Virus record (IMG/VR): IMGVR_UViG_3300018719_000012
Span: 1-24,073 of that record
DNA from: a virus
Length of the DNA: 24,073 nucleotides
Reading direction: 5' to 3' (one strand)
The notes beneath the pieces were generated by a model that saw nothing but the letters and a program-made list of their open reading frames with translations, was not told the DNA's origin and made no database searches. This document shows positions 1,603-6,203 of the stretch, piece by piece (positions within the stretch are counted from its first letter, which is position 1; each line of letters starts with the position of its first letter). A program made the translations under genes and the position numbers.

Positions 1603-4074
1603 ATGAAAAAAGAGGATATACAATATGATGGATCCTTCGATATCGCCACCGGTCGAAGCAGGCGTGAAACAGCCTGGAAGAATCGCGAGATGCAGTGGAG
1701 TGATCTGGTGGTGAAAATTTCCCAGACGCACCGCACGGCTGAAACATACGGTGAGTATGTTGCCTCAAAGAAAATAAGACAGGATGAAATAAAAGATATC
1801 GGTGGCTTTGTGGGTGGATACCTGACAGGTGGCAGAAGAAAATCAGAGAACGTGCTGCATCGCCAGCTGATCACACTCGATATCGACTTTGCAACACCGG
1901 GCATGTGGGATGATTTCCAGCTGCTGTATGGATGTGCAGCGGTTATCTATTCCACGCATAAGCATGCACCGGACAATCAGCGCTTTCGACTTATCATACC
2001 ACTCGACCGTGAGGTACGTCCGGATGAATACATGGCGATATCTCGCCGCATTGCAGGTGTGCTGGGCATCAATTACTTTGATCATACCACTTTCCAGCCA
2101 GAGCGGCTCATGTACTGGCCATCCACTTCCAAGGATGGTGTTTATTTCTTCGATCACCAGGACGGTGAATGGCTGGTGGCAGATGAAGTGCTGGCCACGT
2201 ATACTGACTGGTCAGATACTTCAGAATGGCCGGTGAGTGACAGGGAAACAGAAGTCATAAAGAAAGGAATCCAGAAGCAGGGTGATCCGCTGGAGAAGCC
2301 GGGTGTGGTTGGCGCCTTCTGCCGTACGTACTCTATTGAAGAAGCCATTGAAACATTCCTTGCTGATGTGTACGTTCCATGTGAAATAGAAGACCGCTAC
2401 AGCTTTACGGAAGGATCTACGTCTGCAGGTCTTGTCGTGTATGAAGGCAAGTTTGCTTATTCCCATCACGGGACCGATCCGGTAAGCGGAAAGCTTTGCA
2501 ATGCCTTTGACCTGGTGCGTATTCATAAATATGGACTGAAGGATGAAGATGCCAAAGCAGATACACCATCCAATAAGCTGCCCTCGTATTTGGCGATGGT
2601 GGATTTTGCCACCAAGGATCCTGCCGTACGAAAGCTGATGGGACAGGAAAAACTGCAGGAGGCTAAAAGCGAATTCTTTGATATAGAAGAACCAGAGATT
2701 CTCGATAATGAAGAAGATGACTGGATCACACAGCTGGAGGTAGACCGCAAAGGCAATTACTATAACACCATTGACAACATTGCCATTATCCTGGCTAATG
2801 ATCCTTTCTTTAAAAACAATATTGCTTTTGATGAATTCGAACATCGTGCAGTGGCAAAAAGAGACCTGCCATGGAGAAGGGTAGATCATAAAACAAGATT
2901 CCTGACCGATCGAGACGATGATAACCTGGAACACTACCTGGAGAAAGTTTATAAGATCACATCCACAAAGCTGGAGAAGGCATTGAACGTTATTTATGAA
3001 CGCAATCTTTTTCATCCGGTAAAAGAATACCTCAGTAAACAGAAGTGGGATGGTATTGAAAGAGTAGAAAGGCTATTCATCGATTATATGGGTGCTGCAG
3101 AAAGTGAATACACAAAGGCAGTTACCCGTAAAACACTGGCAGCTGCTGTTGCCCGGGTGTTTCAGCCAGGCATCAAGTTCGACTATGTACTGACACTGAT
3201 CGGTGAACAGGGACAACAGAAAAGCTCACTGCTGAAGAAGCTGGGACGCGAATGGTTCACTGATACATTCAATCTCCATATGCTGCAAAGCAAAGAAGGC
3301 TATGAGCAGATAAGAGGTGTATGGATCGTGGAGATCGGAGAGATGGCGGGTATGGCCAAAGCAGAAGTGGAAAGGATCAAAGGCTTTATTTCTTCTCAGG
3401 AAGACCGCTACCGGCAGGCCTATGGCCGCAGGGTGGAAAACTACCCGCGTCAGTGCATCTTTTTCGGTACCACCAATAAGCCTGACTTCCTGCGAGATCA
3501 GACCGGGAACCGCCGTTTCTGGCCGGTAGCCATCAATCCGGAAGGAGCACTCAAGAATGTTTCCCAGGATCTTGACAGCGAAGAGGTCAACCAGGTATGG
3601 GCTGAAGCAGTGGCCATGTACCAGCGTGGTGAGAAACTGTATTTGCCGGAAAAGCTGGAGAAGGTAGCGGCCCTCGTACAAAAGGAACACACAGAAGAAC
3701 ATCCATGGCTTTCAATGATCCAGCAATACCTGGAAACACCGGTACCTGCTGACTGGGCTAAAATGAAGCGCTATGCGAGGCAGGAATTCCTGCAGGGTGA
3801 TGAACTGCAGCCAGTCGAAGGATTGATGTACATGGACCGCGTATGTGTGCAGGAGCTGTGGTCTGATGCCCTGAACAGGAGAGAGGCCATTGATGAAAAA
3901 AGCGCTGCAGCTATCAGAAGCATCATGCGGAATATGGAAGGTTGGGAGGAAGAAGCAAAGGTGATGCGTTATGGAATTTATGGCTCCCAGCGTAAAGGTT
4001 TTATGCGATCTGATGTACCAAAGGCAATAATGGAAAGTGTTGAAAAAGAGGTGTTACAAAAGCGTTACACCTAG
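1603..4074 (+). CDS. Primase-helicase: VirE_N-like primase plus VapE/D5-like SF3 helicase
   Basis: This 823-residue protein probably opens the origin and primes phage DNA replication. The N-terminal region (about 1-200) resembles the VirE_N/BT4734 branch of archaeo-eukaryotic primases, with the metal-binding DID at 93-95 and the conserved STHKH and RFRLIIPL segments (117-134). Residues about 265-310 hold a SHHGTDP...NAFDLVR segment typical of these fusions. The C-terminal part is a VapE-type superfamily 3 helicase: Walker A GEQGQQKS (534-541), Walker B-like WIVEIGEM (574-581), sensor FGTTNKP (621-627) and arginine-finger segment GNRRFW (635-640). All key residues are present and the length is normal for the family. 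The last codons run into the first boxes of the GTTACA array that follows, as expected when an origin lies next to its initiator gene. Confidence 0.9.
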   Translation: MKKEDIQYDGSFDIATGRSRRETAWKNREMQWSDLVVKISQTHRTAETYGEYVASKKIRQDEIKDIGGFVGGYLTGGRRKSENVLHRQLITLDIDFATPGMWDDFQLLYGCAAVIYSTHKHAPDNQRFRLIIPLDREVRPDEYMAISRRIAGVLGINYFDHTTFQPERLMYWPSTSKDGVYFFDHQDGEWLVADEVLATYTDWSDTSEWPVSDRETEVIKKGIQKQGDPLEKPGVVGAFCRTYSIEEAIETFLADVYVPCEIEDRYSFTEGSTSAGLVVYEGKFAYSHHGTDPVSGKLCNAFDLVRIHKYGLKDEDAKADTPSNKLPSYLAMVDFATKDPAVRKLMGQEKLQEAKSEFFDIEEPEILDNEEDDWITQLEVDRKGNYYNTIDNIAIILANDPFFKNNIAFDEFEHRAVAKRDLPWRRVDHKTRFLTDRDDDNLEHYLEKVYKITSTKLEKALNVIYERNLFHPVKEYLSKQKWDGIERVERLFIDYMGAAESEYTKAVTRKTLAAAVARVFQPGIKFDYVLTLIGEQGQQKSSLLKKLGREWFTDTFNLHMLQSKEGYEQIRGVWIVEIGEMAGMAKAEVERIKGFISSQEDRYRQAYGRRVENYPRQCIFFGTTNKPDFLRDQTGNRRFWPVAINPEGALKNVSQDLDSEEVNQVWAEAVAMYQRGEKLYLPEKLEKVAALVQKEHTEEHPWLSMIQQYLETPVPADWAKMKRYARQEFLQGDELQPVEGLMYMDRVCVQELWSDALNRREAIDEKSAAAIRSIMRNMEGWEEEAKVMRYGIYGSQRKGFMRSDVPKAIMESVEKEVLQKRYT

Positions 4075-4122
4075 TTACAGTCATGTAACAGAAGTAGCGG
4101 TTTTGTAACGCTTTTGTTACAC
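4051..4122. repeat. 19-bp inverted repeat, 34-bp spacer
   Basis: Arms at 4051-4069 and 4104-4122 are complementary at 18 of 19 positions (GTGTTACAAAAGCGTTACA against its inverted copy). Nested between them is a second perfect dyad, GTTACA-gtca-TGTAAC (4074-4089). The repeat spans the stop codon of the primase-helicase gene. It is not followed by a T-run, so it looks like a protein-binding or origin structure rather than an intrinsic terminator. Confidence 0.65.
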
Positions 4123-4216
4123 TTAAAATTTAGTAAATCAATCTTTTATCTATCTGTTACAAATGTTACAAGTAAATAATAATAAAAAGGAATTAGGGAG
4201 AAATAGAAAGAAAATA

Positions 4217-4258
4217 ACGCCTGCACACGCCTGTACACGCCTAATGCGTACGCGTGTA
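4217..4258. repeat. 10-bp tandem ACGCCTG repeats and GCGTACGC palindrome
   Basis: ACGCCTGCAC, ACGCCTGTAC and ACGCCTAATG follow head to tail at 4217-4246 with an exact 10-bp period. They overlap a perfect palindrome GCGTACGC (4246-4253) and a TACACGC / GCGTGTA inverted pair (4234-4240 and 4252-4258). This second repeat family sits between the two groups of GTTACA boxes and is GC-richer than its surroundings. Confidence 0.55.
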
Positions 4259-4299
4259 TAAGAGACTGATTTTTTGTAACAGTGTAACAGTGACTAAAA

Positions 4300-4578
4300 A
4301 TGAATGAAAAATTACTGGAGAAAAAGCTGAGAGAAGAGGTAAAGAAATTAGGCGGTTTAGCCATCAAGTTCACGTCGCCTTCTTTCACAGGATTGCCTGA
4401 CAGGATTGTGCTGATGCCGGTCCGGAGGATCTGGTTCGCAGAGATCAAGACTACCGGCAAAAGTCTGAACCCCAGGCAAAAGATCGTGAAAGCTTTTCTG
4501 GAAGGTCTTGGATTCCCGGTAGCAGTGATTGATGATGAAACATCGCTTGAGAACTTTTTAAACGAACTTAAGAAATGA
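4300..4578 (+). CDS. VRR-NUC family nuclease
   Basis: This 92-residue protein matches the minimal phage VRR-NUC domain, a PD-(D/E)xK endonuclease fold that in characterised relatives cuts branched DNA. The catalytic residues are in order: D34 in GLPDRI, then E48 and K50 in AEIK, with Q60 in the NPRQ segment. The stop codon overlaps the ATG of the SNF2-type helicase (ATGA), so the two are translationally coupled. VRR-NUC next to a SNF2-like helicase is a recurrent pair in phage replication modules, and probably processes replication or recombination intermediates. The gene starts 10 bp after the last GTTACA box. Confidence 0.88.
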   Translation: MNEKLLEKKLREEVKKLGGLAIKFTSPSFTGLPDRIVLMPVRRIWFAEIKTTGKSLNPRQKIVKAFLEGLGFPVAVIDDETSLENFLNELKK

Positions 4579-5981
4579 AGTACACACCATGGCAATACCA
4601 GCAGCATGCAGAGGACCATATTATCCTGCATCCCTTTTCAGGTCTTTTCCTTGGAATGGGTTTAGGCAAGACAGTGACGACCCTGACTGCCATTGATCGT
4701 TTGATGAATGAGCTTTTTGAAGTAACTAAAGTTCTGGTGTTCGCACCACTGCTGGTGGCAGATGAAGTCTGGACCACTGAGGCCAGCAAATGGGATCACC
4801 TGAAACACCTGACCATTTCTAAGGTTCTGGGATCCGAGCGGCAGCGGAAAGAAGCACTGAAAGCAAAGGCTGATATCTATGTCATCAACCGGGAAAATGT
4901 TCCCTGGCTCGTTTCCTTTTACGGTGGTGCCTTTCCATTCGATATGCTGGTGATCGATGAACTGTCATCATTCAAAAGTGCAAAGGCTGCAAGGTTCAAG
5001 GCACTTCGCCAGGTACGGCCAAAAATCCAGCGGGTAGTAGGACTAACCGGTACACCTGCACCTAACGGACTGCTTGACCTGTGGCCACAGCTGTACCTGC
5101 TGGATATGGGTGAACGTCTGGGTAAATCGCTGACATCCTATCGTGAAAAATACTTTCAGCCTGGAAAGCGTAATGGTCATATCGTTTATGACTATAAGCC
5201 AAAGAAGGTGGATGATGCGGATCTACTGGGTGATGATATTGACCAGAAGGAGATCTATGAGCGGATCGGTGATATCTGCATCTCCATGAAAGCAGAAGAC
5301 TGGCTGGAGCTTCCGGAAAGAATTAACCGTAATGTGGAGGTCCGGTTTCCAGTGGAACTGAAAAAGCAGTATGATGATTTTGAGCGCATGCAGGTGCTGT
5401 CACTGGAAGAGGAAAGAGAGATATCGGTTGTCAATGCTGCAGCACTTACTAACAAGCTGTTACAATTTTCCAACGGAGCAGTGTATGATGAAACAGGTGC
5501 ATGGCATGAGATCCACAATGCAAAGATCAAAGCCCTGGAAGAGATCATGGAAGCAGCGAACGGTAAACCGGTACTGGTAGCTTATTCCTTCCGTCATGAT
5601 GCGGAACGGATCAGAAAACATTTCAAAGCCTATAAGCCCAGGGATATCAAAGAGCCAGGCATTATTGATCAATGGAACCGCAAGGAAGTACAAATGCTTC
5701 TGGCGCATCCGGCCAGTGCCGGCCATGGGTTGAACCTGCAGGCCGGTGGCAACAATGTAGTCTGGTTCGGACCTAACTGGAGCCTGGAGTTATACCAACA
5801 GTTCAATACACGCCTTGACCGGCAGGGGCAGACTGAATCTGTGATCATTCACCACATTATCGTGAAAGGTACCATGGATGAAGACGTGCTGGCTTCATTG
5901 GAAAGTAAGGACAACCGGCAGGAAGCTTTGCTTAGAGCAGTGAAGGCAAGGATTCAGAAATATCAAAAGCAATTGGTTTAA
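4575..5981 (+). CDS. SNF2/superfamily 2 DNA helicase (phage type)
   Basis: This 468-residue ATPase has all the main superfamily 2 motifs: Walker A GMGLGKT (27-33), motif II IDEL (127-130), motif III-like LTGTP (157-161), motif V SAGHGLNLQ (381-389) and motif VI QQFNTRLDRQGQ (408-419). The RLDRQGQ form of motif VI is typical of SNF2-like proteins, which translocate on double-stranded DNA. The length is that of compact phage versions with no extra domains. The start overlaps the VRR-NUC stop by ATGA. Together they probably act on forks or branched DNA during phage replication or recombination. Motif II ends in L rather than the common DEAH/DEGH form, as often seen in phage members. Confidence 0.9.
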   Translation: MKYTPWQYQQHAEDHIILHPFSGLFLGMGLGKTVTTLTAIDRLMNELFEVTKVLVFAPLLVADEVWTTEASKWDHLKHLTISKVLGSERQRKEALKAKADIYVINRENVPWLVSFYGGAFPFDMLVIDELSSFKSAKAARFKALRQVRPKIQRVVGLTGTPAPNGLLDLWPQLYLLDMGERLGKSLTSYREKYFQPGKRNGHIVYDYKPKKVDDADLLGDDIDQKEIYERIGDICISMKAEDWLELPERINRNVEVRFPVELKKQYDDFERMQVLSLEEEREISVVNAAALTNKLLQFSNGAVYDETGAWHEIHNAKIKALEEIMEAANGKPVLVAYSFRHDAERIRKHFKAYKPRDIKEPGIIDQWNRKEVQMLLAHPASAGHGLNLQAGGNNVVWFGPNWSLELYQQFNTRLDRQGQTESVIIHHIIVKGTMDEDVLASLESKDNRQEALLRAVKARIQKYQKQLV

Positions 5982-5987
5982 GATCCT

Positions 5988-6203
5988 ATGAGACTGCATC
6001 TGTACATCAATCGAAAACTGATGGCCAATGAAACAGTGTTGAAAGATACCTGGCAGCGAAAGGCAAACACCTTGAGGGAATTGTACAATGAAGAGATCAA
6101 AAACAGTACGACCTGGTCACTGCAGCTGGTGATTTATTCAACTCTGAAGGAAGAAAAAGGTAAAAAACATAAGCCTAGGTTCTTCCAACGGCGGTATTAC
6201 TGA
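5988..6203 (+). CDS. Hypothetical small basic protein (71 aa)
   Basis: The start lies 6 bp after the helicase stop, in the same operon. The product is 71 residues, Lys/Arg-rich at the C-terminus, with no recognised motif, membrane segment or cysteine pair. The tight spacing supports a real gene. The function is not recognised. Confidence 0.6.
   Translation: MRLHLYINRKLMANETVLKDTWQRKANTLRELYNEEIKNSTTWSLQLVIYSTLKEEKGKKHKPRFFQRRYY

Follow-up and report, generated by a model that had tools for sequence, protein, structure and literature searches.

A box array next to the vapE gene as the probable replication origin of a phage, with lineage-specific counterparts in related loci

Results

Genes at the locus

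The window (the whole 24,073-nucleotide stretch of viral DNA that was analysed, IMG/VR record IMGVR_UViG_3300018719_000012) carries at 1603-4074, on the plus strand, the gene of a VapE-type primase-helicase of 823 amino acids (Pfam VapE-like domain, E 7e-82; PHROG 256, DNA helicase), the proposed box-binding initiator. It is followed on the same strand by its constant right-hand neighbour, a VRR-NUC nuclease gene (4300-4578; Pfam VRR_NUC, E 3e-4, which is below the curated cut-off; PHROG 93, endonuclease), and by the gene of an SNF2-type helicase belonging to the same module (4575-5981; SNF2-rel_dom, E 4e-17). A ParB-like gene of the DGQHR type lies at 771-1526 (PHROG 12305, E 4e-28); distant relatives of it were found in the Flavobacterium phages lillamy/morran (~26% identity) and in Enterococcus and Streptococcus phages. 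The window also encodes a terminase small subunit and a homologue of the terminase large subunit.

The helicase half of VapE is 33% identical to SaPI PriRep1 (PDB 7PDS; phmmer E 1e-76 over residues 372-800). An AlphaFold2 model covering residues 372-823 (mean pLDDT 90.7) had 7PDS as its best structural match (Foldseek E 1e-41; VIA Z 37.1, 4.5 Å over 430 residues). The title of the entry reads 'PriRep1 with dsDNA', and the chain is named 'Similar to D. nodosus vapE'; from the work of the depositing group we take it to be the SaPI protein. At the C-terminal end of the model the elements follow in the order beta1 (746-748), alpha2 (749-756), alpha3 (765-777), beta2 (781-783), loop, beta3 (799-802). 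In our reading, this secondary-structure order predicts a winged helix for residues 746-802 (3838-4008, plus strand), with residues 781-802 (3943-4008) as the wing segment. It is this segment that corresponds to the part exchanged along with the boxes in relatives (see below), so that in the model the box-linked portion of VapE comprises the wing and the final strand and does not include the presumed recognition helix. Residue 795, the column best correlated with the boxes, is Ser in the window (codon 3985-3987).

Position and chance level of the array

Ten copies of the hexamer GTTACA/TGTAAC were counted at 4053-4288, all as placed in the preliminary description. Six are on the plus strand (box 1, 4053-4058; box 2, 4064-4069; box 3, 4074-4079; box 6, 4116-4121; box 7, 4156-4161; box 8, 4165-4170) and four on the minus strand (box 4, 4084-4089; box 5, 4104-4109; box 9, 4275-4280; box 10, 4283-4288). 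Seven of the ten read TGTWACA. Boxes 1 and 2 fall in the 3'-terminal part of the VapE gene, and box 3 starts with the final base of its stop codon; from these last codons the array runs through the 225-bp gap before the VRR-NUC gene, between the primase-helicase and the VRR-NUC/SNF2 pair as had been described. Boxes 5 and 6 belong to a near-perfect 18-bp dyad, in which 4104-4121 pairs with 4052-4069 with one mismatch.

The densest 240-bp cluster of any hexamer is the one described here, with ten copies; elsewhere in the window no cluster exceeded five, and the maximum in 200 dinucleotide shuffles was six. The whole window contains 22 copies of the hexamer as compared with 8.6 expected, a number reached in none of 100 shuffles. 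Since the window total is 22 and the expectation 8.6, the 12 copies beyond the array are near background, in agreement with the earlier remark that copies elsewhere are merely scattered.

The box pairs 4156/4165 (9 bp apart) and 4275/4283 face each other, the right pair being inverted, over a 104-bp core. The A+T-rich stretch that had been noticed after the main group of boxes forms part of this core (4171-4225, 73% A+T) and is the proposed melting zone. The core also holds a 17-bp alternating purine-pyrimidine tract, ATGCGTACGCGTGTATA, at 4244-4260. Three tandem near-copies of ACGCCTGNAC with a period of 10 (4218-4243) abut the 5' side of this tract; similar ACGCCT repeats are present at the equivalent place in Listeria phage LWP01. 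GC skew, proposed in the preliminary description as a check, had no turning point at the array.

Arrays in related loci

Scans for close relatives yielded none in the genome collection and one locus in the viral collection, therefore alignment queries were used to gather VapE relatives from phage records and viral contigs. When repeated records had been merged, 229 distinct loci were obtained. A VRR-NUC gene was nearby in 225 of these. The gap between VapE and VRR-NUC had a median length of 281 bp overall; in 201 loci it was non-coding and measured 150-700 bp. The count of the top hexamer in the gap exceeded that of every tile of equal size from the fetched locus in 176 of these 201. Among the non-redundant loci, the first 74 averaged 7.7 copies of the top hexamer in the gap and 2.96 per tile of that size (1974 tiles, none above 6). 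The box occurred 26.5 times per kb in the gap versus 0.6 times per kb elsewhere in the locus, a difference of about 45-fold.

The sequence of the box differed among the phages. The top hexamers present in six copies or more were of at least 54 kinds, many of them, as judged by eye, having the form TGT-N(2-4)-C. In the test in relatives suggested by the preliminary description, arrays were found between the same two genes, with a lineage-specific hexamer. As the box varies from lineage to lineage, a search for the hexamer of the window in the relatives finds almost nothing, and a test relying on the same hexamer would wrongly refute the idea of an origin. The nearest relative of the window (67% identical over VapE residues 1-700) shares the layout; its boxes read TGTTCCA, and it has Pro in place of the Ser of the window.

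A clear array was absent from 25 of the 201 gaps, among them those of a small clade in which the tail motif is the usual one, YGxQ (x, residue 795), and from the fetched stretch of several loci where VRR-NUC immediately follows VapE. The origins of array-less loci may be located elsewhere. The YGxQ motif without a clear array was seen in L032, L149 and L246, where VRR-NUC overlaps the end of VapE (fetched stretch), and in L040, L044 and L248, where a gap is present. L056, L117, L118 and L120, in which VRR-NUC directly follows VapE, have 5-7 GTGAAC boxes ~2.0-2.2 kb past the VapE stop, which may represent a displaced origin. Streptococcus phage Javan512 (L019) has CGTAAC-type repeats in its gap (5835-6199) and a differing VapE C-terminal region that lacks YGxQ; here the layout may be read by a domain of another kind. 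In Streptococcus thermophilus phage D4446 ten TGACCA boxes occupy a non-coding stretch from 5269 onward, two small genes past the helicase gene; replication of the dairy phage may begin there.

A shared layout

The relatives follow a common plan, in which boxes are followed by an A+T-rich core of ~96 bp with an alternating purine-pyrimidine tract and then by one to three inverted boxes. This was quantified on 94 non-redundant loci in which an alternating tract has boxes to its left and to its right. In 86 of the 94, the two boxes next to the core were oppositely oriented (p 1e-17). Core length had a median of 96 bp and was 83-107 bp in 80% of the loci; the median number of boxes to the left of the core was six, and one to three, rarely four, were found to the right. 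In the gap the longest alternating run was on average 15.6 bp long, and the other tiles gave 7.7 bp (p 2e-33). Neighbouring boxes of like orientation were most often 9 bp apart, not 10-11 bp. The phasing by one helical turn claimed for the window holds only for its first three intervals; it did not hold up as a conserved feature.

Boxes change together with the VapE tail

In the Clostridioides difficile prophages L028, L029/L030 and L031/L008, VapE residues 1-700 are more than 99% identical. DNA changes between them are concentrated in a segment reaching from ~150 bp ahead of the VapE stop to ~290 bp past it; the flanks (2.2 kb before and 2 kb after) contain scattered single changes only, plus artefacts of the alignment ends. 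Within this segment the last ~30 VapE codons are altered (GWEPHSSHLRFGKVYGKQRAYIRTK, GWERYDKRLRFGKIYGSQRAFIRKK, DWISYNGNLRFGKIYGRQRAYVRKS), and every box is altered along with the tail (TGTCTACA, TGTTACCA, TGTCAACA). Since differences were found at 68 of 229 positions outside the boxes as well as at 24 of 64 positions in the boxes, the event was an exchange of a cassette, not mutation of the boxes only.

All pairs of loci with at least 95% identical VapE residues 1-700 were then compared, taking residues 783-800 as the tail. Tail identity was 0.979 for the 207 pairs with matching boxes versus 0.639 for the 53 pairs with differing boxes; the pairs are interdependent, and most different-box pairs among those listed come from the C. 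difficile group. The two classes of pairs could not be told apart by residues 701-769 (0.975 for matching, 0.985 for differing boxes) or by VRR-NUC (0.972 and 0.961, respectively). No pair above 85% identity combined an identical tail with different boxes. Further contrasts of tail and boxes were provided by L072/L076 and by the staphylococcal loci L205/L203. When box similarity was set against local VapE identity by partial correlation across all pairs, the C-terminal region gave no signal; percent identity is too coarse a measure for this, and most pairs of boxes have nothing in common.

These sequence comparisons suggest that the boxes are read by the C-terminal tail of VapE. Two candidates for the binding protein had been put forward in the preliminary description. 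The primase-helicase is favoured, as the boxes change with its tail while the rest of VapE and VRR-NUC stay near-identical. The ParB-like protein is unlikely to be the reader: no homologue was found in any of 97 other loci, most of which were covered to ~3.5 kb upstream.

Residue 795

Loci with GTTNC boxes were used to look for single box-linked residues. After thinning at 85% core identity (31 sequences), residue 795 was the first of 804 columns in distinguishing GTTAC from GTTGC; it was also first for all four bases after thinning at 70% (41 sequences). Leu was present at 795 in 5 of 9 GTTAC loci and 0 of 22 GTTGC loci, Val or Ile in 16 of 22 GTTGC loci and 0 of 9 GTTAC loci, and Pro in 6 of 15 GTTCC loci and 0 of 37 others. 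The signal is suggestive, since the residue was spotted by eye before testing, relatedness was only partly removed, and a first mutual-information screen per base ([TG]GTNNNC boxes, 54 non-redundant loci) was ambiguous, with 795 ranking first at none of three box positions.

Discussion

The array is very probably the iteron-type replication origin of the phage, situated beside the initiator gene, with boxes that would be bound by the C-terminal winged helix of VapE. The earlier proposal of an iteron origin is strongly supported by the conserved place and layout of the arrays in relatives and by the homology of VapE to SaPI PriRep1. The winged helix would recognise the TGTWACA boxes, and VapE would assemble on both facing box groups, probably as two facing hexamers. 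It would then melt the ~100-bp core, comprising the A+T-rich part and the alternating tract, and prime and unwind in both directions, giving bidirectional replication. Loading, core melting and bidirectional replication are proposed because of the homology and the layout.

The main competing explanation is that the array is mainly an operator, through which VapE or another regulator controls transcription of VRR-NUC/SNF2, and perhaps of VapE, rather than replication. Initiators often autoregulate, and the last two boxes are just upstream of the VRR-NUC start. However, sigma-70-like promoter matches at the array were not above chance (Bacteroidota-type promoters are outside this model), an array is retained 3' of vapE in three of four streptococcal satellites, where no VRR-NUC gene is annotated, and the inverted arrangement round an A+T-rich core, together with the precedent of SaPI Rep/ori, fits an origin better. 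We consider a mainly regulatory role unlikely.

Two further explanations assign the boxes to other proteins. A centromere-like partition site for the ParB-like protein is suggested by the location of its gene (771-1526), a PHROG 12305 family match within ~3 kb of the array. Nearly all of the 97 other loci compared, none of them with a homologue, have an array in the gap; a conserved ParB gene, as expected beside a parS site, does not accompany the boxes there. The boxes co-vary with the VapE tail instead, and such a function is very improbable. The boxes might also be recognised by VRR-NUC or the SNF2 protein, serving for instance as targets of the nuclease or for recombination. This would agree with the nearly constant neighbourhood of the arrays, but VRR-NUC is identical or nearly so between the C. 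difficile prophages whose boxes all differ, and this is the least probable of the alternatives.

Assuming that the array is an origin read by VapE, phages with this module might use a readable origin code, in which the wing segment, with residue 795 as one key position, sets the box. The last codons and the origin would recombine as one cassette and, therefore, co-resident phages and satellites would not fire each other's origins. We consider such a code about as likely as not.

With the relatives included, a single array becomes a general rule for locating the likely origin in hundreds of phages. A search for one motif misses these origins, as their boxes have no common sequence. The natural swaps point to the part of the initiator that may determine specificity and supply ready-made protein/DNA pairs, which bear on how initiator helicases choose an origin and on how related phages keep their replication separate. 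The alternating purine-pyrimidine tract is a testable additional element of the melting core. Among the hits listed by searches of the open-access literature there was no account of this origin in VapE/VRR-NUC phages, the primary SaPI papers being outside the scope of that search; newness relative to SaPI origins was judged from PMC7581432 and general knowledge.

Comparison with known origins

Among viral origins, those of SV40 and papillomaviruses have SF3-type origin-binding helicases, which load as two hexamers round a melting zone. The model proposed here likewise has two helicase hexamers around such a zone. The origin-binding domain of the SV40 and papillomavirus proteins is N-terminal (PMC7581432), in contrast to the C-terminal one proposed for VapE, and the box sequences are unrelated. 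Cch2 of SCCmec is an initiator helicase with a C-terminal domain and a putative origin of short repeats just downstream of its gene (PMC7581432). It resembles our reading of the window in that a C-terminal domain binds short repeats just 3' of the initiator gene; it differs in having only three 5-nt iterons, in belonging to a different helicase subfamily and in not being of phage origin.

The closest parallel is the SaPI Rep/ori system, where Rep recognises an iteron origin directly downstream of its own gene through its C-terminal domain (PMC7581432). The window shares with it the homologous helicase half of the initiator and repeats directly 3' of the initiator gene, on both sides of an A+T-rich core. 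The C-terminal domain as reader is stated for SaPI Rep (PMC7581432) and proposed for VapE. Unlike the SaPI system, that of the window is part of a phage carrying terminase and structural genes, its initiator unites primase and helicase in a single protein, and its array is followed by VRR-NUC and SNF2 genes. The long alternating purine-pyrimidine tract of the core is a probable further difference, as judged from four streptococcal satellite loci (see below). The window does not qualify as a SaPI, a satellite island mobilised by a helper phage: it has its own terminase small-subunit gene and large-subunit homologue.

The streptococcal satellites Javan354, Javan373 and Javan212 also have locus-specific box arrays 3' of vapE round an A+T-rich stretch. 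Such an array was clear in three of the four streptococcal satellites inspected. They differ from the window in their downstream genes and in having no long alternating tract. Since the alternating runs reach only 7-11 bp in all four streptococcal loci, the long tract may mark the phage version of this origin.
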